NCBI GenBank assembly: GCA_937901475.1
Contig: CALGTL010000144.1
Location: forward strand, 1 to 32,287
Direction: 5' to 3'
Length of the DNA: 32,287 nucleotides
Source of the DNA: an uncultured Dehalococcoidia bacterium
GTDB lineage: Bacteria > Chloroflexota > Dehalococcoidia > Lucifugimonadales > Australimonadaceae
Below are positions 1,597 to 32,198 of the stretch, piece after piece (position 1 is the first letter of the stretch; every line of letters starts with the position of its first letter). Under the pieces are notes generated by a model. That model was given only the letters and a program-made list of their open reading frames with translations. It was not told where the DNA came from and made no database searches. Position numbers and translations under genes: made by a program.

Positions 1597-1700
1597 GCGG
1601 GTAAAATCTTTACTCAATGTGTCGGTTTGCTCTACTGTCATATCCTAGTGTTCGATGACAAGCATATGAATTTTTAGTGAAGTACGGACGAGGACGATAG

Positions 1701-2897: not shown

Positions 2898-2949
2898 CTA
2901 GTGTGCACAAATCAGCGCCATGCTTACATCCTCTTCGTACCAGGGTGAG

Positions 2950-4458: not shown

Positions 4459-4496
4459 TACAAATATCTCCAGGAAAAAGGCCCTACAAATTTTGA

Positions 4497-4522
4497 GGCG
4501 CCAGGAAAAACCACCTGGCGCC
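4497..4522. other. inverted repeat GGCGCCAGG-N8-CCTGGCGCC in the dctP-GMC intergenic region
   Basis: Perfect 9-bp stem read directly from sequence; no T-tract follows. Lies between the dctP terminator and the GMC start. Confidence 0.55.
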
Positions 4523-4542
4523 GAGTCAATTAGGCATAAATA

Positions 4543-4586
4543 AAGAGAAGAGGCCTTGCAGTCTTTCCTGCAAGGCCTCTTCTCTT
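4543..4586 (-). terminator. probable intrinsic terminator downstream of the TRAP substrate-binding protein gene
   Basis: AAGAGAAGAGGCCTTGCAG-TCTTTC-CTGCAAGGCCTCTTCTCTT: 19-bp perfect stem, 6-nt loop, 12 nt after the 3' end of the 4599-5660 CDS. Confidence 0.8.
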
Positions 4587-4598
4587 ATTCGGATTCTC

Positions 4599-5660: not shown

Positions 5661-5708
5661 TATCCTCCTTTGTTCTGGCTACGAGAAAGCCCTGCTAAAA
5701 TTGCGACG

Positions 5709-6785: not shown

Positions 6786-7239
6786 ACTTCCTCCTGTTTT
6801 ACAGCTCTCTGGGTAACGAATTAGCTCGGGACATCACTAAAGCGACGCCTAAGCACATATGAAGACCTGTACTACCCACTTCTGCAACTTAAGGAGTAGG
6901 GACGCACGATACAAATCCCGTTTGAATGTGTCAAGTAGGGAACAGAAAAAGGCATATGGGGAGCATATATGGCGAAAGAAGTGGACTACTCTAATCTAAG
7001 CCTCTAGAAAGAGTAATGCCTATATGCTTCGCCCCAAGTGAGGTGTATAGTTTCGCCGAACATTTAACCCTGACTCCGCCTGCGAACTCGACAGTAGCTG
7101 GGGCAATCAAAAGGCAGAAATGTTCTTAACCAGAGGCTCTGGTTTGGAGTACTCATGATGAGGAATGATCCACCTGCTAAAGATCGGCCCGGATACAGGC
7201 CTTTTAATTAACGAGTGATTTGATTAACAAGGACAGATT

Positions 7240-7764
7240 GTGATTATGCACAGACTATCTAGCAGCGTGAAACTTCTAGAACAAATCTTTGATTTCATAG
7301 TTAACGGGGCTTTTATCATTGCGACCTGGTTGATTATGTTCTTGGCCCTGATTGTGGGCTATGAAGTTCTGATGAGATACGCATTTAATGCCCCCACATT
7401 TTGGGTACTACAAACAGCTGGCTATTGCTTAGCGTTCATTACATTTTTTAGCGCAACAAAAATCTTGCAAGAAGACGGACATACTCGAATGACAGTTGTA
7501 ATCGATATGTTCCCCGAACGTGTCGTGACTGTAGTGAATAGAATTACAGCCTTAGCATCTGGTGTAGTGTGCGGAATCTTGACTTGGAGAACCGGCTTAT
7601 CTACCTACGAAGGCTACCTCTGGGACTTGAACATTTGGGAAGGGTACAAAATCCCTCAGTATTGGGTATGGTGGGTTATGCCCTTTGGTTTTGGATTACT
7701 GACCATTCAATTCTTTCGTATGGTTGGGGGATACAAGCCTCGGCGATGGGATGACTACGATTAA
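7240..7764 (+). CDS. TRAP transporter small permease (DctQ family)
   Basis: 174 aa with four hydrophobic segments; YEVLMRYAFNAPTFWVLQTAGYCLAFITFFSATKILQEDGHTRMTVV is DctQ-like. GTG start with AAGGA upstream; adjacent to DctM. Confidence 0.88.
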   Translation: MIMHRLSSSVKLLEQIFDFIVNGAFIIATWLIMFLALIVGYEVLMRYAFNAPTFWVLQTAGYCLAFITFFSATKILQEDGHTRMTVVIDMFPERVVTVVNRITALASGVVCGILTWRTGLSTYEGYLWDLNIWEGYKIPQYWVWWVMPFGFGLLTIQFFRMVGGYKPRRWDDYD

Positions 7765-7875
7765 CGGAACCCTCAATTAAATTGAGGTGACTCCCAAGCA
7801 TGCGTCGATGTTTTAAATAAACCTAATACGGACAAGTGTGGACACAGTTACTGCTTGACCCAAGAGGAGTTAGTC

Positions 7876-9186
7876 ATGGAGTGGTGGTTAGTTCTTGGTT
7901 TTATTTTCTTATCATTAGTAAGTTTAATGGCTACAGGTATACCGGTAGCCATGACCTTCATGGTATTAAATATTATTGGACTGATTTGGATCGCGGGAGG
8001 ACTGCAAGGACTCGCTTCAATCCCCGGAAGTGTCTTCTCTGGAACCAGCACTTTTAATTTACTTGCTGTCCCTATGTTCTTTTTGCTCGGAGCGGTCCTC
8101 CTTCACTCAGGAATAATCCAGATGGTTATGGAGGTAACTAATGTCTGGGTAGGGAAAATTAGAGCTCGATTGCTTTTTGTTTCTCTCTTCTCAGGCACAG
8201 GGCTAGCAATGTTAAGCGGTGCAGGAGCAGCAGACACCGCATTATTAGCATCAACTCTCTACCCTGAAATGGAAAAACAGGGTTATCACCGAAACCTGAG
8301 CTTGGGAACAATTGTCTCTTCTGGCTTATTGGCAGCCATAATCCCACCAAGCGCCTTGGCAGTTCTTCTGGGGAGCTTGGCAGAAATTAATATTGGAGCC
8401 TTGTTACTGGCCGGCTTATTCCCGGGTTTAATGATGGCGACAATTTACGTGATATACGTCAGCATCAGAGTCGCTTTGAATCCTAGCCTTGCCCCAACGT
8501 ACCCATCCGAAACAGTGTCATTGAAGACTAAATTGCTGATGACATTAAAAATATCACCCCTTGGCATCATAGTATTCATGGTCATGGGTTTTATTTTGCT
8601 AGGAGTAACAACCCCAAGCGAAGCGGCCGTAACTGGCGCTCTTGGAGCCATAGTGGTAACTGCCCTGTACGGTCGGTTAACAATTCAAACGATGAGACTG
8701 GCACTGACTTCAGTTGTTCGTGTATTTGGAATGTTTTTCTTGATAATTGCAGGGGCAATATCATTTGGGCAAGTTATAGCGCAAACAGGGGCTGCAAATG
8801 ACTTGCTTGCGTGGGTCATTAGCTTGCCTCTTAGCCCGATTATGGTTTTGATAGTGATGCAATTAACAATTGTTATATTGGGCCTATTTATGAGCCAATT
8901 ACCAATCATGTTAATAGCGATTCCAATATTCACACCAATTATTGAGACAATGGGTTGGGACCCAATCTGGTTCTGGATTATGTTCTTGATGAATATGGCG
9001 GTGGGCGCAGAGTCTCCACCATTCGGCTTGGCTTTGTTCGTAGTGAAAGGAGCCCTGCCGAAGCATATATCTATGGCCGACATCTATAAGGCACAAATAC
9101 CATATGTAATTATGGATGTGGGCGCTATTGGAATCATCATGGCATTCCCGCAAATAGCTCTCTGGTTGCCAAATAAAATGTATTAG
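7876..9186 (+). CDS. TRAP transporter large permease (DctM family)
   Basis: Very hydrophobic; VPMFFLLGAVLLHSG, GTGLAMLSGAGAADTALLASTLYPEMEKQGYHRNLSLGTIVSSGLLAAIIPPSALAVLLGSLAEINIGALLLAGLFPG. ORF opens at 7855, but GAGGAG SD supports ATG at 7876. Confidence 0.92.
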   Translation: MEWWLVLGFIFLSLVSLMATGIPVAMTFMVLNIIGLIWIAGGLQGLASIPGSVFSGTSTFNLLAVPMFFLLGAVLLHSGIIQMVMEVTNVWVGKIRARLLFVSLFSGTGLAMLSGAGAADTALLASTLYPEMEKQGYHRNLSLGTIVSSGLLAAIIPPSALAVLLGSLAEINIGALLLAGLFPGLMMATIYVIYVSIRVALNPSLAPTYPSETVSLKTKLLMTLKISPLGIIVFMVMGFILLGVTTPSEAAVTGALGAIVVTALYGRLTIQTMRLALTSVVRVFGMFFLIIAGAISFGQVIAQTGAANDLLAWVISLPLSPIMVLIVMQLTIVILGLFMSQLPIMLIAIPIFTPIIETMGWDPIWFWIMFLMNMAVGAESPPFGLALFVVKGALPKHISMADIYKAQIPYVIMDVGAIGIIMAFPQIALWLPNKMY

Positions 9187-9200
9187 ATGGGGGAGCGTAC

Positions 9201-9431
9201 TTGCTCTTGCGTGTGATTGCAGCACTAACGAGCCTTTGGATTGGACTATGCCTGATCGCGTTGATTGGTTACTCGGCAATGACTTTTGTCATATGTTGTG
9301 CTGATGGATCAAGTCGCTGGTCCCAGGGTTCATTCGATTTGACCCCTCCAGCGATAGTGGCTCTTCCCGTTGCTAGTTTGGGTATTGCCCTGGGCTTTGC
9401 CCTGCGGCATCGGTTCCTCAGGCAGCGATGA
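9201..9431 (+). CDS. small hydrophobic protein, two predicted TM segments
   Basis: 76 aa; TTG start at 9201 preceded by GGGGGAG SD; two hydrophobic stretches; begins 15 nt after the dctM-like stop on the same strand. Confidence 0.5.
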   Translation: MLLRVIAALTSLWIGLCLIALIGYSAMTFVICCADGSSRWSQGSFDLTPPAIVALPVASLGIALGFALRHRFLRQR

Positions 9432-9545
9432 CGCGGGGCTCAATACGCCTTGCGCAGAAATGGACGACAAGTTTTATGACGGTAATTGCTCCTTCTTTGA
9501 TAAACCGAATAGGCTCATCGGAGAATATGGCTTGACGGGATAATA

Positions 9546-10826
9546 ATGGAGAACGGTATCCATTATAAAATTGCTCAACTCGCTCCTTTCTACTACGGCT
9601 GGGTTATTGTTGCTATTTGTGCGATAGCCGGAGCTTTCAACGTTGGGCTTATGATTTGGGGACTCGGAGTTTTTCTTTCTCCCATGCAAGAAGAACTAGG
9701 GTGGAACCGCTCAACCTTCTTTTTGCCACTCGCGGTCGGTGGTATTGCCGCTTCAATCCTAGGTCCAATAATTGGCCGCTACTCAGACCAAGAACATGGC
9801 CCTAGGCTTTTGTTCTTGGCAGGAGTACTGCTCCTTGGCTCAAGCGCAATGTACATGCGAAACATTGAAAGCGTTCCCGTATACCTCCTAATTTTCGGAT
9901 TAGTTGGCGGGGTGGGGCGATATTGCATTCAACTTATCACGTACATTATTCCCAAATGGTTTGTGCGCAGACGAGGGCTCGCGCAGGGCATCAGCCTCGC
10001 AGGAATAGTAGGTGCCGGCCCGTTGATATTCCCCGTCTTACTGCAATTCCTTTTCACTGAAATAGGGTGGCGGGATACCTGGTTTGCAATGGGCGTAGCA
10101 CTAATTGTAATAGGACTTCCGGCTACCTTTTTAATCATTAGGCAACCAGAAGATGTAGGGCTGAAGCCCGATGGAGATTCGCTAGAAAGCCTTCAGCTGG
10201 CGAATACAACTTCGCCGATTGCGACACCTACCATTGAAGTGAGCATAACTGGTGATCAAGCAATCCGAACCAGGCAATTTTGGATACTGGCTGTGAGCAC
10301 TAGCTTGGGAATGTTGGCAATCCAAGGCATTATCCCGAATTTTATCCCGTTCTTTATTTCTCAAGGAATTTCCCCTGCCATTGCAGCAGGCACTGTAAGT
10401 GCATACGCTCTTAGTGCGATGACAGCGGGATTGTTCTGGGGCCTTGCGGCCGATAGGTACGGGCACCACCGGGCATACATCATTGCATGCTCTCTCCTGG
10501 GGTCTTTGCTTCTTGCCATGCTTCTTATTCGAAGCCCAATACACGCCTTTAGCTTTATGGTTTCCCTAGGCCTCCCTCTTTCTGGATTTTGGGTACTCCA
10601 ATTCTTGTTGGTAGCAAACACTTTTGGCCGACGCCATATTGGTGCAATCCGTGGCGCTATGCAGCCATTCAACAACGCAGCCATGTATGGAGGACCGCTT
10701 CTTTTTGGTGTGATTTTTGACTTGCGCTCAGATTACGCCTGGCTCTTTTCAATTGCAGGGCTGCTATTTTTGACTAGCGCTGTAATCGCAAGCTTCCTCC
10801 GGCCCCTACCCACCGCCAGGCCATAA
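9546..10826 (+). CDS. MFS transporter (monocarboxylate/OFA-like)
   Basis: 426 aa, about 12 hydrophobic segments; YYGWVIVAICAIAGAFNVGLMIWGLGVFLSPMQEELGWNRSTFFL resembles MFS monocarboxylate/OFA-type N-termini; DRYGHHRAYI loop motif. Confidence 0.88.
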   Translation: MENGIHYKIAQLAPFYYGWVIVAICAIAGAFNVGLMIWGLGVFLSPMQEELGWNRSTFFLPLAVGGIAASILGPIIGRYSDQEHGPRLLFLAGVLLLGSSAMYMRNIESVPVYLLIFGLVGGVGRYCIQLITYIIPKWFVRRRGLAQGISLAGIVGAGPLIFPVLLQFLFTEIGWRDTWFAMGVALIVIGLPATFLIIRQPEDVGLKPDGDSLESLQLANTTSPIATPTIEVSITGDQAIRTRQFWILAVSTSLGMLAIQGIIPNFIPFFISQGISPAIAAGTVSAYALSAMTAGLFWGLAADRYGHHRAYIIACSLLGSLLLAMLLIRSPIHAFSFMVSLGLPLSGFWVLQFLLVANTFGRRHIGAIRGAMQPFNNAAMYGGPLLFGVIFDLRSDYAWLFSIAGLLFLTSAVIASFLRPLPTARP

Positions 10827-10875
10827 ATTTCTCTGCGCGCCTTAACGTGTACTCGACCATGCGAGAATTGCTACG

Positions 10876-12087
10876 ATGACACGCCCCTCCCTTGGAATGC
10901 CCCCCCATAAGATTCGAGACTCTTGGCGACGGCCTGAAGTCTTGCTTCCACCTAATACATTCATGTTCGGATTTTTCGTCGGGATGATGCTCGCGCTTGT
11001 GCCGTTGTACATGTACGCCAATGGGTACGACGTCAGCGCGATTGGTGCCGTCGTCGCTGCCCAGGCAGTGTTCCAGATTGGCCTTCGCATCGTCGCTGGG
11101 GTCGTGTCAGACCGCTACGGTGAGCCAAGGGTTATCACCGCCGGGTTTGTCGCGATGATTATTAGCGCCTTGCTCTTCATGGCCTCCACTAATATTTGGA
11201 TTATGTTCTTAGCCCAATTATTCACAGGAGCATCCCGGGCTGCACACATGCCAACTTCTAAGTCTTATGCGAGCCGTATTGACGAAAGGAATGCCGCCAG
11301 CAACATCGGAAGATCTCTAGGTGCCACGACCCTTGGTAACATCGCAGGCCCCGCGGCCGGTGGCTTATTGTCAGCATCGATAGGTTTCTCCAGCGCGTTC
11401 GCTGTAGCTGCTGCTATCGCTACGATTGGTCTTCTGATTTCGTTCTTGCTGCCTGAGCTAGCTCGCAAGCAAGCACAGACTATGCGCGAAGCATTAGCTC
11501 GAGTCCCTGCAATGATTCGCGCGCGCGCCAGTGTATTACCTGGACTGATTGCGCTGTTCGTCGCTTCCTCAATGTCTGTTATGACATCGGTCTTCGTGGT
11601 CTTGATTAGGGACAGTGATTCGGGAGAAACAACGGTCGGGCTTACCCTAGGCGCAGTCGCGCTTGGTGCTTCTGCCACTAGCTTTGGATTCGCGATTATC
11701 CATGAGAAATTTGGTACGCGTGGAGTTTTCGCGCTGCTTTTCGGATCAATAGGAGTGGGTATGATTGTCATCGCTGTGACCGACATGGTGCTTCTCCGGT
11801 TCATATTCGCCGGAATAGTAGGCGGAGGAGTAGGGCTAGGCGCCGTCATGTACGGTCTGCTCGCGGCCATCAATAGCCAGCCTGAGGAGCGTGGAGTAGC
11901 CATGTCAGTGGCAGGTCTTTACTGGGCTGTTGGCATGCTCGTTGGTCCTCTGGCTTATGGCGGTCTGGCCGAAGCCATCGGTACGTCTCAATCTGTGGTT
12001 ATTGCTGGCATGTTTGCGCTTGCCCTTTCGCTTCTCACTCCCCTAGTCTTCGCCACTTTATCGAATAAGCCGGCGGCAGCGCCGTAA
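10876..12087 (+). CDS. MFS transporter
   Basis: 403 aa, about 12 hydrophobic segments; GVVSDRYGEPRVITAGFVAMIISALLF (MFS loop motif). Confidence 0.85.
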   Translation: MTRPSLGMPPHKIRDSWRRPEVLLPPNTFMFGFFVGMMLALVPLYMYANGYDVSAIGAVVAAQAVFQIGLRIVAGVVSDRYGEPRVITAGFVAMIISALLFMASTNIWIMFLAQLFTGASRAAHMPTSKSYASRIDERNAASNIGRSLGATTLGNIAGPAAGGLLSASIGFSSAFAVAAAIATIGLLISFLLPELARKQAQTMREALARVPAMIRARASVLPGLIALFVASSMSVMTSVFVVLIRDSDSGETTVGLTLGAVALGASATSFGFAIIHEKFGTRGVFALLFGSIGVGMIVIAVTDMVLLRFIFAGIVGGGVGLGAVMYGLLAAINSQPEERGVAMSVAGLYWAVGMLVGPLAYGGLAEAIGTSQSVVIAGMFALALSLLTPLVFATLSNKPAAAP

Positions 12088-12421
12088 GCCGTACGAAGCT
12101 AACGAGGGGTTGAGCTTCACTGAGTGATCATGGTTACGTCCCCATGCGGGTAAGTTTTCGCTGTTAGGGTTGATAGTGGATTGATCTAAAGTGGTTTGTA
12201 GTACCGGCCATGAGTATGCCCAGAAGAATTACAGAGAATCATTCACTGGAATGGATAATGAGATTTACAAAAAAATGTGCGACCATCTGCCCAAATGATG
12301 ACAAGGCTTCAACCCCGAATTGCGCTCAGCTTGGATGGCCAATAACCCTGACCAAAGGAAACTGGCTGCTGGCCTTGCGTGTAGTGCATAGGAGGAATAT
12401 TCCTTCCTTGGAGATGAAAGA

Positions 12422-12943
12422 ATGATTGAGACTTGGTATGACGTGTTCCAGACGAGCTGGGGATGGATGAGCGCGGTAGGGTCAGCCAAAGGACTTCGGT
12501 ACTGCTCGCTTCCGGAGGAAACTCCGGTTGATGCGGTGGAGTTCCTGGCTAAGACGGTCAAAGGAGGCTTGCCTGAGCAGCGCGAGGGCGCGTTCGAGGC
12601 CTTTCGAAAGCAGGTCGAAGAATACTTTTCGGGTAAGCGCACGGACTGGGACATTACGCTTGATCTCGATGACTCTACTCCGTTTTTCCGACGAGCATGG
12701 GACGCTTGCCAGTTGATACCGCGTGGCGAAACACGGACGTATCGCTGGTTGGCCGAGCAAGCAGGGAATATTGCCGCGTCAAGAGGAGCCGGGCAGGCAA
12801 TGGCACGCAATCGCATCCCGATTGTTATCCCATGCCATCGCGTAATCGGCAGCGATGGTGGATTGCATGGGTTCGCTGGGCCAGGCCTGCCACTGAAGGC
12901 ACGCCTTTTGCAGCACGAGTCCGCTCTTACGCTTACGGACTAA
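12422..12943 (+). CDS. ogt: methylated-DNA--protein-cysteine methyltransferase family (MGMT)
   Basis: 173 aa; IPRGETRTYRWLAEQAGNIAASRGAGQAMARNRIPIVIPCHRVIGSDGGLHGFAGPGLPLKARLLQHE contains the PCHRV active-site motif; GGAGATGAAAGA SD. Confidence 0.93.
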   Translation: MIETWYDVFQTSWGWMSAVGSAKGLRYCSLPEETPVDAVEFLAKTVKGGLPEQREGAFEAFRKQVEEYFSGKRTDWDITLDLDDSTPFFRRAWDACQLIPRGETRTYRWLAEQAGNIAASRGAGQAMARNRIPIVIPCHRVIGSDGGLHGFAGPGLPLKARLLQHESALTLTD

Positions 12944-22061: not shown

Positions 22062-22274
22062 CTAGCCCCGTTCATCATCTCTAGCAGCAGTAAGAGAAGA
22101 GCGCTTAACCGCACGTTCGATTTTGGTGCGTGTCATCAGGAGGTAGTGCTGACAAGTGAGGCAACGAACTCCGATATCGGCACCGAGGCGCTCCACACGC
22201 CACGTGGAGCCGCCGCAGGGGTGCGCTTTGCGCATGGTCAGGGCCTCACCAAGATGGAACTCTACGACGGCCAT
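22062..22274 (-). CDS. DUF951 family protein
   Basis: 70 aa; LRKAHPCGG-type core [46 protein letters not shown] matches the remembered DUF951 pattern (KKPHPCG..W.V.R.GAD...C..C.H.....R...E..VK). Start overlaps the pyrF 3' end. Confidence 0.85.
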
Positions 22275-23092
22275 TGGAAGCCTAGTTTCTTGCGCTCCAC
22301 GTTAATATCGGTCCGGAGCGTGTCAGCCGCTGCTCGCGCAGCCTCCGCAAAATCAGGCCCCTTCGATGCAAAAATGATCCCACGTGACGAGTTGACCACA
22401 GCACCTAGACCTTTAGTATTCATACCGAATCGGATCGCTGATTCTAAGTCACCGCCTTGCGTGCCGATGCCGGGAATGAGAATTGGCATGTCAGTCGCAA
22501 TCTCGCGAACACGGCGCATTTCCTCAGGGGCGGTCGCGCCGACAACTAGGCCAATATTTCCTCTGGTATTCCATTCGACTGCACGCCCAGTGACGTGCTC
22601 GTAAAGTGGGCGTGAACCTTCTGCATCCGTGACTTGTAACTCCTCAAAATCGCTAGCGCCGGGATTCGATGTGCGCGTCAGAATGAACACGCCTTTGTCC
22701 TTGTACTCAAGGAAGGGTTCGATAGTATCTCGACCCATGTAGGGGTTCAGCGTTATCGAATCAGCCCCCCAGACTTCGAATGCGGCCTTCGCGTATGCGG
22801 CCGCGGTGCTGCCTATATCACCTCGCTTAGCGTCAAGAATCACAGGCACGTCGCTCGGCACTGCCTTCATAGTGGCTTCTAGGGCACGCAACCCGAGGAG
22901 CCCCTCTGCTTCATAGAAGGCATAGTTGGGCTTGTAGGCGCATACGAGGTCGCCCGTTGCTTCGATGATTGACTTCGTGAAGGCCGCGAAATCGCTGATT
23001 GGCATGGACGGACCCCATGGATCCAAACCGATACATACCAAGCTTTGGTTGCGCCTCGCTGCAGTGTCTAGGCGGTCAGTAAATGTACTCAC
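22262..23092 (-). CDS. pyrF: orotidine 5'-phosphate decarboxylase (type 2)
   Basis: 276 aa; [98 protein letters not shown]. Confidence 0.96.
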
Positions 23093-23280: not shown

Positions 23281-23979
23281 TTGCCATGGAGTGTGCGAGT
23301 GACTCGATTTTCTGCAAAAGCCCGGTTGCTCATGGATATCTACGACCGCTTGTTCGCGGCATACGGGCCACAGGGTTGGTGGCCGAGCGATGGTCCGTTC
23401 GAGACAATTGTCGGAGCTGTGCTGACGCAAAACACCGCGTGGGTCAATGTCGACAAGGCATTATCTAATTTATGGGCGGCTGATTTGATGACGCCTGCTG
23501 CCATTCGCGCGGTCTCGGATTCTGACCTAGCGGAGGTAATCCGGCCAAGTGGATACTTCAATAGTAAAACGCGTAAGCTCAAAGCGATTGCTGCGCACCT
23601 AGCGCTCTATGATGATGATACTAATCGGTGGTGCTCTCGCGAGGCCAAGGAGCTACGAGAAGAGCTATTAAGCGTGTATGGCATTGGTCCGGAGACGGCG
23701 GATGACATTGTGCTGTACGTTGCTAAATTGCCGTCGTTCGTGATGGATACGTATACGATTCGCATCATTGACCGTATTGGTGCGACTCCTCGGCGCAAGC
23801 GTTACGAGGACTATCAAGCTCTGTTTGAAGATAATCTTCCTAACGATGCGCCTCTATTCAACGAATACCACGCTCTACTCGATGAGCATGCGAAAGCGAT
23901 TTGCCACAAGCGTAACCCTGCCTGCGGTGACTGCGCGCTACGTGAAATCTGTCGCGAAGGTAAGCGTGCCATGGTGTAA
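23281..23979 (+). CDS. endonuclease III-like HhH-GPD DNA glycosylase with FeS-type Cys cluster
   Basis: LFAAYGPQGWWPSDGPFETIVGAVLTQNTAWVNVDKAL, LLSVYGIGPETADDIVLYVAKLPSFVMDTYTIRI (HhH-GPD), C-terminal CHKRNPACGDCALREIC. Start uncertain; ATG at 23332 is the conservative choice. Confidence 0.9.
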   Translation: MPWSVRVTRFSAKARLLMDIYDRLFAAYGPQGWWPSDGPFETIVGAVLTQNTAWVNVDKALSNLWAADLMTPAAIRAVSDSDLAEVIRPSGYFNSKTRKLKAIAAHLALYDDDTNRWCSREAKELREELLSVYGIGPETADDIVLYVAKLPSFVMDTYTIRIIDRIGATPRRKRYEDYQALFEDNLPNDAPLFNEYHALLDEHAKAICHKRNPACGDCALREICREGKRAMV

Positions 23980-23983: not shown

Positions 23984-24021
23984 AAAGGAGAGAGGCCGTA
24001 CCCCACCCCCCTCTCTCCTTT
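23984..24021. terminator. bidirectional terminator between converging genes
   Basis: AAAGGAGAGAGG-N14-CCTCTCTCCTTT: 12-bp perfect stem, A/T flanks, between converging 23979 (+) and 24052 (-) CDS ends. Confidence 0.85.
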
Positions 24022-24051: not shown

Positions 24052-25212
24052 CTACGTGTCACGCTCGCTTGTGACACCAGCCTCACCAGTGCACCAAGGA
24101 ATGAAGGCCTTCATGTTGCAAGTGGCACCAACCTTTGCAAGCTCGGCCTCGAATAGCCGATGTATCTCGCGATCTTCGTCTTCGTACTCAATTTGAATCC
24201 CGCCGTCTTTCATCGACTTCGCCGCATTGCCATAGGACCCGCCGTACGGCTTCACGAGCCCGTGGCTACCGGCCTTCATTGCCAAGTAGCGCGCGCGGCG
24301 TGTGCCGGAATTGAAGTGCTGGTGCACTGTGCCGGCACCGGGCACTATGACCATCGCTCCCGCCTTCCAGTTGGCGCGCACCATGTCAGAGCGATCTTCG
24401 TTTTGCCAAAGAAGCGAGTAGCCTGCATCGCCGCTGAGAAGGACGAGATGGGCACCGGGCCCGTGCCTGTGTGCCTTCTTGTAGGTGCCAATGGGGAACT
24501 CTGAGATGTGCAAGTTCAGGCTGTTTTTCGCCATCTCAAGCATCGCATTGACTCCTCCTGCACCACGCTCTTTCCAGCCATAGAGTGGCATATCAGGCGC
24601 GTTTGGTACGAAATTCGATTCCCATACACGCTTGTTATAGAGCGTTCCTGTCCCGCTATAGGAATCTTCGCCACCGGAGAAACGCTCGCTGAAGATGTAT
24701 GGGTTGTTGAAGATGAAATCGTCGTTTCGGTAGAGCCTCATTAATGGAGGCGCGCTGGTTACCGCTATGTAGCGTGCCGGCTCCGTGCCGCTGCCGTTGA
24801 AGAATTGATACCAGGCGTTCAGTGGAATAGCGAATAAGCTGCCGGCGTGCCATTCGAACGTAGATTTCTCTTTCTCATTGTTCCAGAGGCTCGTCGCACC
24901 CCGACCAGAGAGTACATAAATCTGAGTCTCATACATGTGGTGTTCAGGTTCTGACTTGCCACCTGGTTTAATCTCCACTACTTGAGAGTCGTTTGGAATC
25001 TCGTCATTAGGGATATTGATGATGGCACCCTTGCCACCTTTACGCTCCCAAGGGCCGAGTTCCAGCGTGTTCAAATCTTCAAAGGCAAAGTCCACTATTA
25101 GAGGTACGCCCTCACGCTCAACCCAATCTATGTAGGGGTCTCCGATCGCAAAATCTTGAAGCGCCTCTGTAGGCTCTGGTGCTTGAATGATGCCTGTGTC
25201 GTTGGTAGTCAT
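24052..25212 (-). CDS. two-domain cupin protein, array member 1
   Basis: Starts MTTNDTGIIQAPEPTEALQDF; SEPEHHMYETQIYVLSGRGATSLW (cupin 1), AHRHGPGAHLVLLSGDAGYSLLW...VPGAGTVHQHFNSG (cupin 2). ORF opens at 25230, but GAGAGGG SD supports ATG at 25212. Confidence 0.9.
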   Translation of the reverse strand: MTTNDTGIIQAPEPTEALQDFAIGDPYIDWVEREGVPLIVDFAFEDLNTLELGPWERKGGKGAIINIPNDEIPNDSQVVEIKPGGKSEPEHHMYETQIYVLSGRGATSLWNNEKEKSTFEWHAGSLFAIPLNAWYQFFNGSGTEPARYIAVTSAPPLMRLYRNDDFIFNNPYIFSERFSGGEDSYSGTGTLYNKRVWESNFVPNAPDMPLYGWKERGAGGVNAMLEMAKNSLNLHISEFPIGTYKKAHRHGPGAHLVLLSGDAGYSLLWQNEDRSDMVRANWKAGAMVIVPGAGTVHQHFNSGTRRARYLAMKAGSHGLVKPYGGSYGNAAKSMKDGGIQIEYEDEDREIHRLFEAELAKVGATCNMKAFIPWCTGEAGVTSERDT

Positions 25213-25233
25213 ATGAACCCTCTCTAGCATTCA

Positions 25234-25263
25234 AAGAGCGCCCTCCGTACGGAGGGCGCTCTT
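25234..25263. terminator. perfect 15-bp inverted repeat between cupin array members 2 and 1
   Basis: AAGAGCGCCCTCCGT|ACGGAGGGCGCTCTT; only a short T-run on the minus strand and ending about 20 nt before the ATG of member 1, so terminator function is uncertain. Confidence 0.6.
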
Positions 25264-25293
25264 ATCCATAGTGCCGAAACTACATAATGATGA

Positions 25294-26442
25294 CTAAGTG
25301 TCACGCTCGCTGGTCGGACCTACCTCGCCTGTGCAGTAGGGAATGAAAGCCTTCATTCGGCAAGGCGCGCCGTTCTTGGCAAGCTCCGCCTCGAACAGCT
25401 GATGAATCTCACGGTCTTCGTCTTCGTACTCTATCTGCATCCCGCCTTCTTTGATGCTGACATTAGACTCGCCCCATCCGCTAGGCTGGCCATCACCAGG
25501 GCGCAGTGCGAGGTAACGTGCGGGCTCTGGACCAGTGTTGAAATGCTGATGGTATGTGCCGTCCGCGGGCACTATGACCATACCGCCCTTCTTCCATGGT
25601 GCGATTTCGTATTCCTTTTTGTCATTGTCCCACCACAAGGCGGAAAACCCCTGGCCACCAAGTATGACCAAATGCGCGCCTGGACCGTGCTTGTGGCCCT
25701 TTTTGTAGGTACCAACAGGGAACTCGGAAATGTGAGTGCCGGTAACGTTACCAGCGAGATCGAAATGAGTATTGATTCCACCAGCCCCACGATCCTTGTA
25801 CTGCCACAATTTCATTACATCGGCGTTGGGCACGAAATTGGTCTTCCACATGGTGCCGAACTTTGTACCCTTGCGCTTGTATAGCGTGCCTTGGCCGTTG
25901 AAGTAGTCTTCGTTATCACCAGAGAACCTGTCGCTGAAGTGGTAGTCGTTGTTGAAGATGAAGTCACTGCTCTTGAACATTCGCATGACGGGAGGAGCGT
26001 TAGTCATGGAGACGTAGCGCGCGGCCTCGGCCCCTGAGCCATTGAAGTGCTGATAAGTGGCATTCAACGGGATAACCACGAGACTGCCAGCAGCCCACTC
26101 GAACGTGGATTTTTGGCCGTCTTCGTGCCATACGCTGGTCGCGCCGCGACCGGAGACGATATACATCACCTCTTCATACATGTGATGTTCGGGCTCGGAC
26201 TTGCCCCCTGGTTTGATCTCAATCAAGTGACAGTCATTAGGCAATGCACCATTGGGGATGTTGATGACAGCACCTTTGCCACCCTTTCGGTCCCAGGGAC
26301 CTAACTCAACTTCGTCCAAGTCCTCGAATTTGTATTCAACGATGCGCTTGATGCCTTCGCTCGCAATCCATTCTAAGTAAGGATCACCAGCCTCCCAGAG
26401 ATCCATTTTTTCGGGGAGTTCTGCCTCTCGTAGGTCAACCAT
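25294..26442 (-). CDS. two-domain cupin protein, array member 2 (most divergent)
   Basis: 382 aa; SEPEHHMYEEVMYIVSGRGATSVW; GHKHGPGAHLVILGGQGFSALW...VPADGTYHQHFNTG; GGAGGCCGCATCCA SD. Confidence 0.9.
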   Translation of the reverse strand: MVDLREAELPEKMDLWEAGDPYLEWIASEGIKRIVEYKFEDLDEVELGPWDRKGGKGAVINIPNGALPNDCHLIEIKPGGKSEPEHHMYEEVMYIVSGRGATSVWHEDGQKSTFEWAAGSLVVIPLNATYQHFNGSGAEAARYVSMTNAPPVMRMFKSSDFIFNNDYHFSDRFSGDNEDYFNGQGTLYKRKGTKFGTMWKTNFVPNADVMKLWQYKDRGAGGINTHFDLAGNVTGTHISEFPVGTYKKGHKHGPGAHLVILGGQGFSALWWDNDKKEYEIAPWKKGGMVIVPADGTYHQHFNTGPEPARYLALRPGDGQPSGWGESNVSIKEGGMQIEYEDEDREIHQLFEAELAKNGAPCRMKAFIPYCTGEVGPTSERDT

Positions 26443-26490
26443 TGGATGCGGCCTCCGTTTCGATTCGTGCGGTGATTGTACACAAAAAAA

Positions 26491-27657
26491 CTAAGTGTCA
26501 CTTTGAACAGTCGGCCCTACCTCACCAGTACAGTAAGGTATGAATGCTTTCATCCGGCAAGTGGCCCCGCGCTTCGCTAGCTCGGCTTCGAATATTTCGT
26601 GAATCTCGCGAGCTTCGTCTTCATATTCGATCTGGCGACCGCCATCTTTCATGCTGACGTCTGCACCGGGGCGGATGCCACCATATGGAGGCACGAGGCC
26701 GTGCTCGCCTTGTTTGAGCGCGAGATAGCGGGCACGCTTAGTGCCTGTGTTGAAGTGCTGATGGAAAGTTGCGTCACCAGGCACAATAACCATTCCATTT
26801 TTCTTCCAATCGGCCTTAATCATGTCCGAGCGGTCTTCCTTTGTCCACAGCATGGAGTAACCGGAGTCGCCGCTCAGGAGCACGAGATGGGCCCCTGGGC
26901 CATGGCGATGGCCCTTCTTGTAGGTGCCAACAGGAAATTCAGAGATGTGCGAGTTGATACTGTTCTTGGCCATCTCCAGTGCCGTGTTGATTCCACCCGC
27001 ACCACGAGCCGCCCAGCCTTGCAGCGGCATGTCAGGTGCATTCGGGATGAAGTTGGACTCCCAGATACGCTTATTGTAAAGCTGGCCGTTACCACTGAAG
27101 GCGTCCTCTCCTGACGAGTAACGCCCTTTGAATATGTGAGGAGTGTTGAACATGAAATCATCATCGCGGTATAAACGCATAAGAGGTGGGGCACTGGTGA
27201 CCGCAACGTAACGGGCGGGGTCCGAGCCGCTAGCATTGAAGAATTGATACCAGGCGTTGAGAGGAATCGAGAACAAGCTGCCCTCGTGCCATTCGAACGT
27301 ACGTTTTTGGTTTTCGTCGACCCATAGACTTGTTGCACCACGACCCGAAAGCACATAAATCTGCGTCTCGTACATGTGGTGCACGGGCTCGGACTTCGCG
27401 CCGGGATTGATTTCTACAACTTGGGCGTCGTTAGGGATGGTGTTATTGGGGATATTGATGATTGCACCACTGCCACCTTTTGCCTCCCACGGAGCCAATT
27501 CTAGTGCGTTCAAATCCTCGAATGCGAAATCTACAATATACCTTGGCCCTTCTCGCTTCACCCACTCTAAATAGGGATCTTCCACCGTAAAGTCCTGTAG
27601 GGCCTCCGTTGGTGTTTTTGCCCTGAGAATCTCTCGGTCTTCCGTGCCGCTGGTCAT
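26491..27657 (-). CDS. two-domain cupin protein, array member 3
   Basis: SEPVHHMYETQIYVLSGRGATSLW; GHRHGPGAHLVLLSGDSGYSMLW...VPGDATFHQHFNTG. ORF track opens at 27741, but GGAGG SD and paralog alignment support ATG at 27657 (MTSGTEDREILRAKTPTEALQDF). Confidence 0.9.
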   Translation of the reverse strand: MTSGTEDREILRAKTPTEALQDFTVEDPYLEWVKREGPRYIVDFAFEDLNALELAPWEAKGGSGAIINIPNNTIPNDAQVVEINPGAKSEPVHHMYETQIYVLSGRGATSLWVDENQKRTFEWHEGSLFSIPLNAWYQFFNASGSDPARYVAVTSAPPLMRLYRDDDFMFNTPHIFKGRYSSGEDAFSGNGQLYNKRIWESNFIPNAPDMPLQGWAARGAGGINTALEMAKNSINSHISEFPVGTYKKGHRHGPGAHLVLLSGDSGYSMLWTKEDRSDMIKADWKKNGMVIVPGDATFHQHFNTGTKRARYLALKQGEHGLVPPYGGIRPGADVSMKDGGRQIEYEDEAREIHEIFEAELAKRGATCRMKAFIPYCTGEVGPTVQSDT

Positions 27658-27684
27658 AGTGATGAGCCTCCGCTTCTTGGTAAT

Positions 27685-27718
27685 GCGGAGACTATCTGAA
27701 TGTGCACGCGGGTGCCAG
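27685..27718 (-). promoter_or_regulatory. putative promoter of cupin member 3 (CTGGCA-N18-TAGTCT-CCGC)
   Basis: Same arrangement as the elements upstream of members 4 and 5; TCAGATAGTCTCCGC vs TCAGATAGGCTCCGC (member 4). Confidence 0.45.
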
Positions 27719-27745
27719 TTTTCGTGTTGGGCTTGCTTCAAAGCA

Positions 27746-27788
27746 AAGAAAAGGAGACGGGCCTCACTGAGGCCCGTCTCCTTTTCTT
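27746..27788. terminator. terminator-like hairpin between cupin members 4 and 3
   Basis: AAGAAAAGGAGACGGGCCTC-ACT-GAGGCCCGTCTCCTTTTCTT: 20-bp perfect stem with A-rich/T-rich ends. Confidence 0.8.
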
Positions 27789-27815
27789 ACAAAACCAATA
27801 TTACTGAGATGAAGC

Positions 27816-28970
27816 CTAGGTATTGCGCTCTTCAGTGACTCCCTCGTGACCAGTGCAGTAGGGGATGAATGCCTTCATGTTGCACTGTGCCCCATTCTTG
27901 GCAAGCTCCGCCTCAAAGATTTCGTGAATCTCACGATCCTCGTCGGTGTACTCGACCTGGATGCCGCCGTCCTTGAGGCTGACGTCAGCCGACGCGCGCT
28001 GATTAGGAGCTAGGAACCCACCCTTGCCATCACGGAGAGCCATGTAGCGCGCTCGCGTTGTACCAGAGTTGAAGTGTTGGTGATAGGTCCCGTCTCCTGG
28101 AATAATGACGATTGAACCTACCTGCCAGTCGCACTTGATCATGTCGGAGCGGTCGTCCTTCGTCCACAGCAATGAGAAACCGGAGTCACCGCTCAGCAGC
28201 ACCAAGTGAGCCCCTGGGCCGTGACGGTGCGCCTTCTTGTAAGTGCCGACAGGGAACTCTGAGATGTGGTTCCCCATGTCGTTCTTGCCCATGTTGAGCA
28301 TGGCATTGATACCGCCAGCACCGCGTTCTTTCCAGCCATATAGAGCCATGTCAGGAGCATTGGGAATGAAATTAGTCTCCCATATGCGCTTGTTGTATAA
28401 GGTGCCACCACCTGCAAAGTAGTCCTCGTCACCAGAGTAACGAGACTCGAACATGGTGGGGCAGTTGAACATGAAGTTTTCGTCTCGGAACAAGCGCATC
28501 ATTGGTGGTGCGTTGGTGGTCGCGATGTAGCGAACCTTTACGTCACCGGTTCCGTTGAAGTGCTGGTACCAAGCGTTCAAAGGGACGGTGAATAACGCCC
28601 CAGCTGACCACTCGAAAGTCTGCTTGTGCGCCTCGTCCATCCATACCGTCGTGGCTCCGCGACCGGACACGATGTAGAAATTCACTTCATACATGTGATG
28701 CTCTGGCTCGGACTTTCCACCGGGGTCGATGTCGACTACGTGGAGGTCGTTGGGCATGTTGTTGTTGTCAATGTGGACAACAGCACCCTTGCCTCCCTTG
28801 CGCTCCCAAGGACCAACTTCAATCTCGTGCATGTTGGGGATGTAGAAAGTCTCGTGAACGAGAACATTCTCTTTTGCCAACCAATCCTCATACGCATCAG
28901 GAATGCGGAAATCCGTCAGCCCTTGCGACGGCGTGTCCGCGACTTTCATGTCGGTGCCCTTCATTACCAT
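27816..28970 (-). CDS. two-domain cupin protein, array member 4
   Basis: 384 aa; SEPEHHMYEVNFYIVSGRGATTVW; AHRHGPGAHLVLLSGDSGFSLLW...IPGDGTYHQHFNSG; GGAGGG SD. Confidence 0.92.
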   Translation of the reverse strand: MVMKGTDMKVADTPSQGLTDFRIPDAYEDWLAKENVLVHETFYIPNMHEIEVGPWERKGGKGAVVHIDNNNMPNDLHVVDIDPGGKSEPEHHMYEVNFYIVSGRGATTVWMDEAHKQTFEWSAGALFTVPLNAWYQHFNGTGDVKVRYIATTNAPPMMRLFRDENFMFNCPTMFESRYSGDEDYFAGGGTLYNKRIWETNFIPNAPDMALYGWKERGAGGINAMLNMGKNDMGNHISEFPVGTYKKAHRHGPGAHLVLLSGDSGFSLLWTKDDRSDMIKCDWQVGSIVIIPGDGTYHQHFNSGTTRARYMALRDGKGGFLAPNQRASADVSLKDGGIQVEYTDEDREIHEIFEAELAKNGAQCNMKAFIPYCTGHEGVTEERNT

Positions 28971-29013
28971 GGCAACTGCCCTCCGATTTAATCAATGAGT
29001 GCTTGGATACTGA

Positions 29014-29046
29014 GCGGAGCCTATCTGATTCAGACAAAAGGGGCAA
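29014..29046 (-). promoter_or_regulatory. putative promoter of cupin member 4 (TTGCCC-N17-TAGGCT-CCGC)
   Basis: -35/-10-like hexamers at 17-bp spacing; element shared with members 3 and 5. Confidence 0.45.
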
Positions 29047-29083
29047 CGCCTGGGTCTTCTTATATCAAGGAAGCATTCTCTTT

Positions 29084-29129
29084 GAAATAGAAAGAGACAG
29101 GGCCGGCTGGCCCCGTCTCTTTCTATTTC
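29084..29129. terminator. terminator-like hairpin between cupin members 5 and 4
   Basis: GAAATAGAAAGAGAC-A-GGGCC...GGCCC-C-GTCTCTTTCTATTTC: 15-bp outer stem plus inner GC stem. Confidence 0.8.
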
Positions 29130-29157
29130 ATTCGCCGGCACACTAACAGACAGTTGA

Positions 29158-30315
29158 TTACGCGTCGCGCTCGCTCGTTACACCCGCGATGCCGGTGCAA
29201 TACGGGATAAAGGCTTTCATGTTGCACTGAGCACCTTTCTTGGCTAGCTCAGCCTCGAAAACCTCATGAACGACACGCTCTTCGTCGCTGTACTCAATTT
29301 GCCAACCTCCCTCTTTGATGGAGGCATCAGCTCCTTTCCAAGGAGCGGCAGGGTCATTGAATCCACCATCCCCCGAGCGGAGCGCCATGTAGCGAGCGCG
29401 CTTCGTGCCGGAGTTGAAATGCTGATGGAATGTACCGTCACTGGGGACGATTACCATAGTGCCAACCTGCCAGTCGCACTTAATCAAGTCAGATCGGTCT
29501 TCCTGGGTCCAAATCTGCGAGTAGCCGGAGTCACCACTGAGGAGCACCAAGTGAGCCCCGGGGCCGTGTCGATGCGCTTTCTTGTAAGTACCGACAGGAA
29601 ACTCAGAGATATGGTTACCCATGTTGTTTTGGCCCATTGAAAGCATGGCGTTGATGCCACCCGCACCACGCTCTTTCCAACCGTAAAGAGCCATATCAGG
29701 AGCGTTTGGGATGAAATTGGATTCCCATATGCGCTTGTTGTATAGCCGCCCACCGCCGCTGAAAGCGTCTTCTTCGCCGGAGTAACGACCTTTGAACATA
29801 TGGTCATTGTTGAATATGAAGTCGTTGTCACGGAACAGGCGCATCATTGGAGGGGCATTGGTCGTGCAAAGATAGCGTGCAGGCTCTGCCCCTGAACCGT
29901 TGAAGTGCTGGTACCAAGCGTTCAATGGGACAACGAAGAGGCTGCCTTCTTTCCACTCAAAAGTGTGCTTCTGCTTCTCATCAATCCACACTGTCGTGGC
30001 TCCGCGCCCAGACACAATGTAGAAATTGGTCTCGTACATGTGGTGCTCAGGCTCAGACTTTCCACCGGGATCAATCTCAACAACGTGGCAGTCGTTGGGC
30101 ATGTGGCGGTTGTCGATGTGGATAACCGCACCCTTGCCGCCTTTGCGCTCCCAAGGACCGACTTCAATCTCTTTTATATTGGGGAAGTAAAATTCTTTGT
30201 GAACCAGGACTCCCTCGTCATCCAGCCACTGCTGGTACGCGTCGGGAACGTTGTGATCGGTGAGACCATCGGTAGGGGTCTCTGCGATCTTCATGTCCGT
30301 GCCTTGCATGACCAT
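29158..30315 (-). CDS. two-domain cupin protein, array member 5
   Basis: 385 aa; SEPEHHMYETNFYIVSGRGATTVW; AHRHGPGAHLVLLSGDSGYSQIW...VPSDGTFHQHFNSG; AAGGAGAG SD. Confidence 0.92.
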   Translation of the reverse strand: MVMQGTDMKIAETPTDGLTDHNVPDAYQQWLDDEGVLVHKEFYFPNIKEIEVGPWERKGGKGAVIHIDNRHMPNDCHVVEIDPGGKSEPEHHMYETNFYIVSGRGATTVWIDEKQKHTFEWKEGSLFVVPLNAWYQHFNGSGAEPARYLCTTNAPPMMRLFRDNDFIFNNDHMFKGRYSGEEDAFSGGGRLYNKRIWESNFIPNAPDMALYGWKERGAGGINAMLSMGQNNMGNHISEFPVGTYKKAHRHGPGAHLVLLSGDSGYSQIWTQEDRSDLIKCDWQVGTMVIVPSDGTFHQHFNSGTKRARYMALRSGDGGFNDPAAPWKGADASIKEGGWQIEYSDEERVVHEVFEAELAKKGAQCNMKAFIPYCTGIAGVTSERDA

Positions 30316-30392: not shown

Positions 30393-32198
30393 TTATCGCT
30401 GCGCTACAGTCTTTGGCTCTTGGGGTTTCAAAACTCCAATGTGCGGAAGATTGCGATAGCGTCCGCCATAGTCCAATCCGTAGCCGATGACGAATTCGTC
30501 AGGGATCTCAAATCCGATGTAATTCAAAGGTATCTGCGCCATGCGCCGTACCGACTTGTCGAGTAGACAGCAGACATTCAGGCTTGAGGGATTCTTTGCT
30601 TGAAGATGTTCTAAGAGGTAACGAAGAGTTAGGCCTGTATCAACGATGTCCTCGATGACGATTACTGGCCTGCCTTGAATGTCAGTGCCCACGTCACGGA
30701 GAATCTCGATGGTCTCCTCTCGCTCCTCTCCGTAGTGAGAGATCTCCATGAACTCGATCTGAATAGGCAGATCGATGTTGCGCATGAGATCGGCCATGAA
30801 GACAACAACACCACGGAGCACCCCGATGAGCAATGGCTCTTGGCCCGCGTAGTCTTCAGCAATCTGTTTGCCTAACTCGCGAACACGTTGCTGCACCTGG
30901 GCTTCGCTGAAGAGGACCTGCTCTGTGCCAGTGACATCTACGTCTGAGAGAGGACCGAAACCGTACTTGCCCATTAAGCGCATAAGATCGCGTCTGTACA
31001 GCAATTGAATATTGATTTCCGGGTACATCTCCTGCACGTGACGCAATTTCCTGTTCTTTTGCGTCACTAGGCTCTGCTTCATGGTCGTTAGCTCGAAATA
31101 CTGGTCGTACTCAGGCAGATAGAAGTCTGGGGTGTGCATCTCGATTACGCGATTGCCATCCCACCGCAGCGGAAAGGACCGAGGTTCATAGAGGAATTTG
31201 ATTTGGTAGTAGTCTAGAAGGTTCGCGAATTCACGCTCGCTGGGATGCATGAATGAGAGATCAGGAGTTTTAGACGGGGACGAGTCAATCTCAGACAGGC
31301 TTCGGGCGGGTCTATGTCGTTCGCGCCTTTGTTCCTCCCGGACTTCGTGGTCTGCATCGCTCTTCATCTCGGAGGAGTCCCAGTCTTCCGAGTCCGGCGA
31401 AGCCTCTAGTGACTCGGCAGGCGCGCGATCACCACGAACCCATTCGTCAGCAATCCGCCCGTCGATTGGTCGTGGGCCAACAAGAATAGTCTCTTGAGAT
31501 GGGGGGATACCCGCAACCCCTTGTTCGGGGGTTTGCCTGCGACGGCCTACGCCTCCCCGATGACCCCTACGGCGCCTGCGGGGTGCAAGGGTTTCTCCTT
31601 CAGAGTCACCATCGCCTTGCGAGTCGATTTCTTCCGTCTTTGCTGGTACGGCATACTGTGCCGCGTTCTCTGTGCTGGCTGCCTCCGCTGCTGGTTCTAT
31701 GGTGCGGCGAATGCGCTGTACGGGCGCCGAAGCTTCCTCGCTTGCCAATTCGTTTGGAGTGGCCTCGTCTGAGGATTTTCCCTCGGTATGCTTTACGGCT
31801 GGCTTGCGACGGCGCCGCGTCGGCTTGTGGGCTTCATCCGCCACAGGGATGTTCGTTTGGGCGTCACTAACTACTTCACTCAATGCTGTCTTGTTTGTGC
31901 GTCGTCGTCGTGTGCTAGTGGACACTGGCTCGGCGGGGCTTCCGGGCGAGGAAATTGCATCTGTGGCAGGCACCTCTTCCATTGGGAGTGACTTCGCTGG
32001 CCGACGGCGCGACGTACGCCGCGGATCTTCGTCGCCGATGGACGAGGCGGTTGCTTCCTGAGAAGGGCGTGCCTTTGCCTCTGGCGCGGCCCTCCTACGA
32101 CGCCTTGGGGCTGGTGTTGCCTCAGTGCTGTCGTCTCCAGGAGCCTTGCCGTGTGGTGTAGGTAGGTTGTCTTCTACCACGTTTTCTCCGTCGAGCAT
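30393..32198 (-). CDS. hpt: hypoxanthine phosphoribosyltransferase with Arg-rich disordered N-terminus and PD-(D/E)XK nuclease-like middle domain
   Basis: 601 aa; C-terminal HPRT: LLIGVLRGVVVFMADLMRNIDLPIQIEFMEISHYG...VIVIEDIVDTGLTLRYLLEHL...EIPDEFVIGYGLDYGGRYRNLPHIGVL. Middle: SEREFANLLDYYQIKFLYEP...HTPDFYLPEYDQYFELTTMK. N-terminus: repeated RRRRR blocks. Confidence 0.92.
   Translation of the reverse strand: MLDGENVVEDNLPTPHGKAPGDDSTEATPAPRRRRRAAPEAKARPSQEATASSIGDEDPRRTSRRRPAKSLPMEEVPATDAISSPGSPAEPVSTSTRRRRTNKTALSEVVSDAQTNIPVADEAHKPTRRRRKPAVKHTEGKSSDEATPNELASEEASAPVQRIRRTIEPAAEAASTENAAQYAVPAKTEEIDSQGDGDSEGETLAPRRRRRGHRGGVGRRRQTPEQGVAGIPPSQETILVGPRPIDGRIADEWVRGDRAPAESLEASPDSEDWDSSEMKSDADHEVREEQRRERHRPARSLSEIDSSPSKTPDLSFMHPSEREFANLLDYYQIKFLYEPRSFPLRWDGNRVIEMHTPDFYLPEYDQYFELTTMKQSLVTQKNRKLRHVQEMYPEINIQLLYRRDLMRLMGKYGFGPLSDVDVTGTEQVLFSEAQVQQRVRELGKQIAEDYAGQEPLLIGVLRGVVVFMADLMRNIDLPIQIEFMEISHYGEEREETIEILRDVGTDIQGRPVIVIEDIVDTGLTLRYLLEHLQAKNPSSLNVCCLLDKSVRRMAQIPLNYIGFEIPDEFVIGYGLDYGGRYRNLPHIGVLKPQEPKTVAQR

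Follow-up and report, generated by a model that had tools for sequence, protein, structure and literature searches.

What do five two-domain cupin (bicupin) genes in a row do for a marine SAR202-type bacterium, and how did they come to lie side by side? Paralog expansions are a hallmark of SAR202 and are thought to broaden the range of recalcitrant carbon that it can oxidize. In the deep ocean, SAR202 accounts for a large fraction of the bacterioplankton (PMC10444878). Its expansions include FMNO (group III), enolases (group I), and Rieske RHDs (group VII), MPMJ01 being a group VII symbiont with 62 RHDs (PMC6946804, PMC5395668, PMC10444878). The word "cupin" is absent from the main text of these expansion papers, and the mention of cupins that we found in the SAR202 literature lies within a cited title. 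Here we follow up a prediction made from a 32,287-nucleotide stretch of DNA (the window) from the genome of a SAR202 group VII family member.

Five intact bicupin genes at a conserved locus

All five open reading frames between positions 24052 and 30315 are intact and lie on the minus strand at the coordinates originally predicted (Table 1), and the motifs quoted in that prediction are present and line up in the protein alignment. The proteins score 41 to 51 bits on Cupin_2 (PF07883), above the gathering cut-off of 27.2. An AlphaFold2 model of member 5 (pLDDT 91) has two beta-barrel domains with two cupin strand sets, and two-domain cupins match it along its length. Sister genera carry one or two bicupin genes at the same hpt/nth/pyrF locus.

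Table 1. Features at and around the bicupin array (positions in the window)
Feature	Position	Strand	Remarks
pyrF (orotidine 5'-phosphate decarboxylase)	22262..23092	-	Conserved flank of the locus
Endonuclease III-like gene (HhH-GPD; nth)	23281..23979	+	Conserved flank of the locus
Terminator-like hairpin	23988..24013	-	Just downstream of member 1; basis is a consensus match only
Bicupin member 1	24052..25230	-	392 aa; second in-frame ATG at 25212
Bicupin member 2	25294..26442	-	382 aa; separate lineage
Bicupin member 3	26491..27657	-	About 388 aa from likely ATG 27657; TTG-start ORF open to 27741
Bicupin member 4	27816..28970	-	384 aa
Bicupin member 5	29158..30315	-	385 aa; AlphaFold2 model pLDDT 91.3
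Member 5 cupin domain 2 (residues 196-385)	29161..29730	-	Predicted catalytic metal site
Member 5 N-terminal region and cupin domain 1 (residues 1-191)	29743..30315	-	
hpt-type gene, 601 aa	30393..32198	-	Directly upstream, same strand, 77 bp gap; flank conserved in G001 and OSU_TB62

Origin and age of the array

The original prediction paired member 1 with member 3 and member 4 with member 5. All-vs-all protein identities bear out both pairings (74.5% and 76%, respectively, compared with 57 to 66% for the other pairs). A tree also places members 1 and 3 within one small clade, but member 5 splits off ahead of a clade that contains member 4 and genes from other genera, so members 4 and 5 are not strict sisters. 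Member 2, which had been singled out as an outlier, indeed falls in a separate lineage, represented elsewhere by dispersed single-copy orthologs (G009, G012, and OSU_TB62). Each of the five genes has its own ortholog in the array of a genome of the same genus (G001), with 80 to 85% DNA identity and 91 to 95% protein identity; the member 1 ortholog, in the G001/casp40 array, is 91% identical in protein. The dN/dS ratio between orthologs is about 0.03, indicating that they are under purifying selection.

Within the array, DNA identity between copies is only 60 to 73%, which together with the separate G001 ortholog of each copy excludes a collapsed or duplicated assembly. The congener's array is itself divided between two contigs, which could be taken to favor an assembly artifact or a recent tandem amplification; with 27 to 40% of bases differing between copies, an ortholog for each in a second genome, and the low dN/dS ratio, either origin is rejected as extremely improbable. 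The predicted old duplication and divergence thus stands as far as age is concerned, whereas simple serial tandem duplication is rejected for member 2 on account of its dispersed orthologs. Sequence relationships indicate that the array is a composite, with members 1 and 3 as sisters, members 4 and 5 as near relatives, and member 2 from a lineage whose genes lie singly and dispersed elsewhere. An origin from phage or plasmid was rejected, as a search for viral relatives found none and the only good plasmid relatives are 38% identical copies in Rhizobiales.

The host genome (2.3 Mb) holds 24 full-length bicupin copies, including further tandem sets of three genes (C26) and two genes (C13). Its relatives in the same GTDB family carry 12 to 52 copies in each of 12 genomes. 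Five bicupins in a row are not unique, as a genome from another family (G022) has an independent seven-gene array. The array is best explained as a single locus of a large bicupin family of the SAR202 group VII lineage that diversified long ago. It shares both clade and pattern, tens of ancient paralogs per genome, with the published SAR202 expansions but represents a different enzyme family.

A conserved 3-His site in the C-terminal cupin

We counted residue conservation across 62 diverse family members, using member 5 numbering. Domain 2 contains an almost invariant H248-x-H250-x3-A254 plus H297-x-H299 motif: H248, H297, H299, Y244, W269, and R308 are present in 62 of 62 members, H250 in 57, and A254 in 46. 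The putative ligands H248, H250, and H297, with A254 in place of Glu, correspond to the 3-His, Glu-to-Ala pattern of GDO and SDO. In domain 1 the metal motif is degenerate (EHHMYE / YQHFN; E90/H92/Y135/H137) and poorly conserved across the family. Conservation thus indicates that the C-terminal cupin keeps one 3-His site throughout the family. To our knowledge, such a C-terminal 3-His site is a structural form undescribed among gentisate-type enzymes.

The site resembles that of gentisate, salicylate, and 5-aminosalicylate dioxygenases in its H-x-H-x3-A and H-x-H motifs, its missing Glu ligand, and its second-shell His; for gentisate dioxygenase, the literature describes both the Ala in place of Glu and the second-shell histidine of HxH (PMC4019311). 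Unlike in those enzymes, the 3-His site of the bicupins lies in the C-terminal cupin and has been lost from the N-terminal one. In homogentisate 1,2-dioxygenase, a ring-cleaving bicupin, it is likewise the C-terminal cupin that carries the active site (PMC4019311), but by its published description the ligands are 2-His-1-carboxylate rather than 3-His. Arg127 of salicylate 1,2-dioxygenase is essential for substrate deprotonation (PMC10306065); the aligned position in member 5 is L256, with L, V, I, or Y elsewhere in the family.

Profile and fold comparisons

The best sequence-profile match of the bicupins is to the collinear gentisate, salicylate, and 5-aminosalicylate 1,2-dioxygenases (PDB 3bu7, 2d40, and 2phd; TIGR02272 and NF049978). 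The best PDB match of the family profile is gentisate 1,2-dioxygenase 3bu7 (E 9.6e-11), and an hhalign comparison with gentisate-dioxygenase-like proteins of SAR202 yields 97% (E 1.2e-10) and is collinear across both domains. The domain 2 profile scores 22 to 41 bits on those SAR202 proteins versus 3.5 bits on OxdC, the control being one oxalate decarboxylase sequence, the sole one found in 201 genomes. These results uphold the predicted likeness to 3-His ring-cleavage dioxygenases.

The bicupins match no curated enzyme family, none of the enzyme-family cut-offs being reached. They are unmatched or score about 18 bits on TIGR02272 (gentisate 1,2-dioxygenase; cut-off, 442 bits), members 1 to 5 score 18 to 30 bits on NF049978 (5-aminosalicylate 1,2-dioxygenase; cut-off, 650 bits), and MabB scores are below threshold. 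On TIGR03404 (oxalate decarboxylase; cut-off, 254 bits) they score 15 to 20 bits, and Ala stands in domain 2 at the position of the Glu of the Mn-binding 3-His-1-Glu sites. With the TIGR02272 and MabB cut-offs missed, Arg127 replaced by Leu, and the 3-His site C-terminal, membership in the gentisate and salicylate families does not hold. In Foldseek searches, oxalate decarboxylase/MncA bicupins are the closest full-length fold (TM 0.47) and generic cupins such as ABP1, TM1459, and quercetinase are nearest to domain 2; gentisate dioxygenase is absent from the top 50 for both the whole model and domain 2, scores being nearly equal among cupins, and gentisate-type enzymes do not stand out by predicted fold.

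Genomic context

In one sister genus (g4), the gene order at the same locus is Rieske RHD, Amidohydro_2, and, downstream of these, bicupin(s). Gentisate/aminosalicylate-type dioxygenase genes adjoin bicupins in L092, L098, L119, L178, and L179. Bicupins occur in 26 and LigXa_C RHDs in 14 of 301 Chloroflexota genomes, with both in 12 (Fisher 9e-13, treating the genomes as independent and ignoring shared phylogeny). Bicupins are missing from one RHD-rich relative (G021), and around the bicupins of SAR202 genomes no neighbor class, RHDs and amidohydrolases included, was significantly enriched over a background of 40 positions in G012. Ring cleavage is favored by the 3bu7, hhalign, and domain 2 profile matches, the 3-His/Ala site, the g4 locus, the adjoining gentisate-type genes, the co-occurrence, and dN/dS; the missed cut-offs, the Arg127-to-Leu difference, the Foldseek ranking, the lack of local enrichment, and G021 speak against it.

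Possible functions of the bicupins

The bicupins could instead be metal-dependent cupin enzymes that work in the same catabolic setting without cleaving rings, either as O2-independent lyases, isomerases, or decarboxylases or as dioxygenases on diketone- or flavonol-like substrates. Fold searches rank oxalate decarboxylase, MncA, quercetinase, TM1459, and phosphoglucose isomerase over gentisate dioxygenase, the (R)-mandelonitrile lyase and oxalate decarboxylase models match weakly, and Arg127 is missing. However, the domain 2 profile favors gentisate-type dioxygenases over the one OxdC sequence by 18 to 37 bits, Ala stands where OxdC and quercetinase use a Glu ligand, and several loci have neighboring gentisate-type genes; we consider this function rather unlikely. 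It is considerably less probable that the proteins are true but divergent gentisate/salicylate-type 1,2-dioxygenases with ordinary substrates, as the collinear two-domain similarity and the 3-His/Ala signature might suggest, since the same genomes encode separate, recognizable gentisate-type proteins, mostly at 230 to 390 bits on a model on which the bicupins have no hit or about 18 bits, and the active domain is swapped and Arg127 missing. Fold and profile searches also retrieve ABP1 and vicilins, but non-catalytic ligand-binding or storage cupins (sensors or carriers) are very improbable given the near-complete conservation of the 3-His site and second-shell residues in 62 diverse members and the gene strings with oxygenases.

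We put at about even the chances that the bicupins are a new family that acts in aromatic catabolism in the way ring-cleaving 3-His Fe(II) cupins do. In such enzymes, Fe(II) would occupy the 3-His site of domain 2. Since the Glu ligand is missing, with Ala in its place as in gentisate/salicylate dioxygenases, an aromatic acid would have space to bind and chelate the metal while O2 takes up the remaining position. Insertion of O2 would then open the ring of the substrate, a hydroxylated aromatic (or heteroaromatic) carboxylate. With its site lost, the N-terminal cupin may be structural or shape the pocket. The paralogs would have differing substrates and would follow, in the pathway, the Rieske (LigXa-type) oxygenases, which are expanded in a similar way.

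The bicupins, which are distant relatives of ring-cleaving enzymes, probably help SAR202-type bacteria to use hard-to-degrade aromatic compounds. More tentatively, and with somewhat less than even confidence, these C-terminal-site 3-His Fe(II) bicupins may be undescribed dioxygenases that have expanded, in other Chloroflexota lineages as well as in SAR202 group VII, to tens of copies in each genome and that serve as the ring-opening stage after the Rieske expansion. Every paralog would then act on an aromatic ring of its own, from refractory dissolved organic matter or from sponge-derived aromatics. Ring-hydroxylating oxygenases, the known group VII expansion, require a subsequent ring-cleavage step, and the bicupins in the same genomes offer a concrete, expressible candidate for it.

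Structure and origin of the bicupin array

The array comprises five intact ORFs of 382-392 aa each, the third reaching 416 aa with a TTG extension, separated by intergenic gaps of ~48-190 bp. All five members pass the Pfam Cupin_2 cut-off, and none of the curated enzyme models comes near its cut-off on them. Pairwise identities among members are 57-76% for protein and 60-73% for DNA. The tandem array of five bicupins (two-domain cupins) put forward in the original prediction is confirmed, and the observation proves larger in scale than was reported there.

Features of the window and of related loci in the own genome (G000) and in G022
Feature	Location	Strand	Remarks
Bicupin array (members 1 to 5)	24052-30315	minus	
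hpt-type gene	30393-32198	minus (as bicupins)	77 bp upstream of array
nth and pyrF			downstream of array
Terminator-like hairpin			3' of array's last bicupin gene
Catabolic neighbourhood	484-12087		ornithine cyclodeaminase-like, two Amidohydro_2, GMC oxidoreductase, TRAP transporter DctP/Q/M, two MFS transporters
Second array, own genome	L112 (G000:C26), 8316-11870		three bicupins; four small genes, then molybdenum hydroxylase gene
Short match, own genome	G000:C200:1513-1689		59 residues matched, one in-frame stop; possible decayed bicupin
Seven-gene array, another family of the order	L121 (G022:C1:90000-109900), 3750-12504		seven tandem bicupins; adjoins Rieske RHD gene

In the hpt-type product, the hypoxanthine phosphoribosyltransferase occupies residues ~422-593. 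Ahead of it lie an N-terminal extension, long and rich in Arg, and a middle segment (..THTPDFYLPEYDQYFELTTMKQ..) whose sequence looks, by eye, like a PD-(D/E)XK/TnsA-like nuclease. The sole Pfam hit is the C-terminal domain.

The array is also present in a genome of the same genus (G001; JAQCEV01... contigs, isolate casp40-mb.130), divided between two contigs. Each member has a separate G001 orthologue, at 91-95% protein and 80-85% DNA identity, which rules out an assembly artefact and means that the array predates the split between the two species, in line with the old duplication originally proposed. Between window members and their orthologues, dN/dS is 0.026-0.031 where dS is estimable (it is saturated for member 3); the copies are under strong purifying selection.

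A quick tree search with SH-aLRT support groups members 1 and 3, as had been paired by eye, with the single-copy bicupin of sister genus g4. The other proposed pair, 4 and 5, does not come out as strict sisters: member 5 diverges ahead of a clade that unites member 4 with genes from other genera. Member 2, already singled out as the outlier, sits in another clade, its orthologues being lone genes elsewhere in three relatives (G009, G012 and OSU_TB62). The locus itself is syntenic among relatives, with one bicupin between hpt and pyrF in OSU_TB62 and, beside nth and pyrF, one or two in g4 genomes and two in genomes of sister genus g2. Tree placement and these smaller loci therefore indicate that the array grew from one or two ancestral genes to five within the window genus, but that member 2, at least, came from another lineage, so that serial duplication explains only part of the array.

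Copy number and distribution of the family

At 2.31 Mb and 97% completeness, the own genome encodes 24 full-length bicupins plus one short, stop-containing match. Within the order, the family occurs in 14 of 39 genomes, namely 13 of the 16 of the own family, with 12-52 copies each, and G022, with 17. The three own-family genomes without bicupins are 60-76% complete and belong to other genera. The seven-gene array of G022 is monophyletic (99% support) and independent of the window array. Across the phylum sample, 26 of 301 Chloroflexota genomes have a bicupin match, which in a few cases is weak or partial, and copies reach 31 (G051), 37 (G076), 25 (G094) and 44 (G223). Relatives outside the phylum occur in MAGs of Deltaproteobacteria/Binatia, Alphaproteobacteria and Acidimicrobiaceae and on plasmids of Sinorhizobium and Phyllobacterium; a search for viral relatives found none.

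Relation to ring-cleaving dioxygenases

Searched against PDB sequences, the family profile matches gentisate 1,2-dioxygenase 3bu7 best (E 9.6e-11), followed by ABP1 (1.5e-7) and oxalate decarboxylase (5.6e-5). Aligned profile to profile with nine gentisate-type proteins from SAR202 relatives, the family reaches 97% (E 1.2e-10), with both domains collinear, and domain 2, the C-terminal cupin, alone gives 96% against their C-terminal domain. In a control comparison, the nine proteins receive 22-41 bits from the domain-2 profile and one oxalate decarboxylase receives 3.5; with the full-length profile the separation is less sharp (23-56 versus 22.5). Fold searches of the bicupin models do not single out gentisate dioxygenase.

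Among 62 diverse family members (member 5 numbering), Y244, H248, W269, H297, H299 and R308 are invariant, H250 is kept in 57, and 46 have Ala where the Glu ligand usually sits. All of these positions lie within the C-terminal cupin; many paralogues lack the N-terminal motifs EHHMYE and YQHFN. The AlphaFold2 models reach pLDDT 91.3 and 89.5, which marks them as confident. Gentisate dioxygenase has H119-x-H121, H160, a Glu-to-Ala replacement and second-shell H162 (PMC4019311), and bicupin domain 2 shares the 3-His set, the replacement and the second-shell His. The functional site, however, is in the N-terminal domain of gentisate dioxygenase. In the S. pomeroyi enzyme, two iron centres have been reported (PMC10306065).

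The resemblance to 3-His Fe(II) ring-cleavage dioxygenases thus stands in the profile match and the 3-His/Ala site, whereas membership in the gentisate dioxygenase family is contradicted by model cut-offs, site position and the missing Arg127, leaving the original interpretation supported in part. We therefore say that the bicupins, judged from sequence, probably work like a 3-His ring-cleaving cupin without being gentisate dioxygenases.

Genomic context and proposed mechanism

Bicupins are mostly scattered in SAR202 genomes, and none of the neighbour classes around them rises significantly above background. Some individual loci are telling. In g4 genomes, the syntenic one reads Rieske/LigXa-type RHD, Amidohydro_2, bicupin(s). 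A gentisate/aminosalicylate-type dioxygenase gene adjoins a bicupin in Syntrophobacter sp. (L092), a deltaproteobacterium (L098) and, twice, G011 (L178, L179), and lies ~4 kb from one in the own genome (L119). Locus L088 strings together two UbiD decarboxylases, two bicupins and a molybdenum hydroxylase. Within the order, all 14 bicupin genomes have at least 27 LigXa_C-type RHD matches, versus any match in 3 of the 25 bicupin-less genomes; in the phylum sample, bicupins occur in 12 of the 14 genomes with LigXa_C, a count without correction for phylogeny. G021 is an exception, with 48 LigXa_C-type matches, no bicupin and two full gentisate-type matches instead.

Nearly every bicupin genome among the SAR202 relatives (G000-G015, G022) also has several full-length EutA-family genes (PF06277); the order's bicupin-less genomes have no full-length copy. 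Of 60 such genes, 10 lie within 2 kb of a listed bicupin versus 1.8 expected, orthologous pairs not being independent. This adjacency recurs in Acidimicrobiaceae, a Bacillota MAG and Rhizobiales plasmids (L085, L087, L104 and L105 among the loci).

The analysis establishes homology, one conserved 3-His site, selection and expansion, together with a genomic, partial link to aromatic catabolism. The 3-His site would bind Fe(II), which an aromatic o-hydroxy acid would chelate, with O2 activation and then ring opening to follow; substrates may be partitioned among paralogues. As a guess, R308, Y244 or H299 might assume the role of the missing Arg.

The sponge symbiont MPMJ01 (here G013), of SAR202 group VII, has 62 Rieske RHD paralogues (Saw et al., PMC6946804); the word "cupin" does not appear in the main text of the SAR202 expansion papers PMC6946804, PMC5395668 and PMC10444878. 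The bicupins are a new family inside a known kind of enzyme, and they add a further example to the paralogue expansions already known in SAR202.
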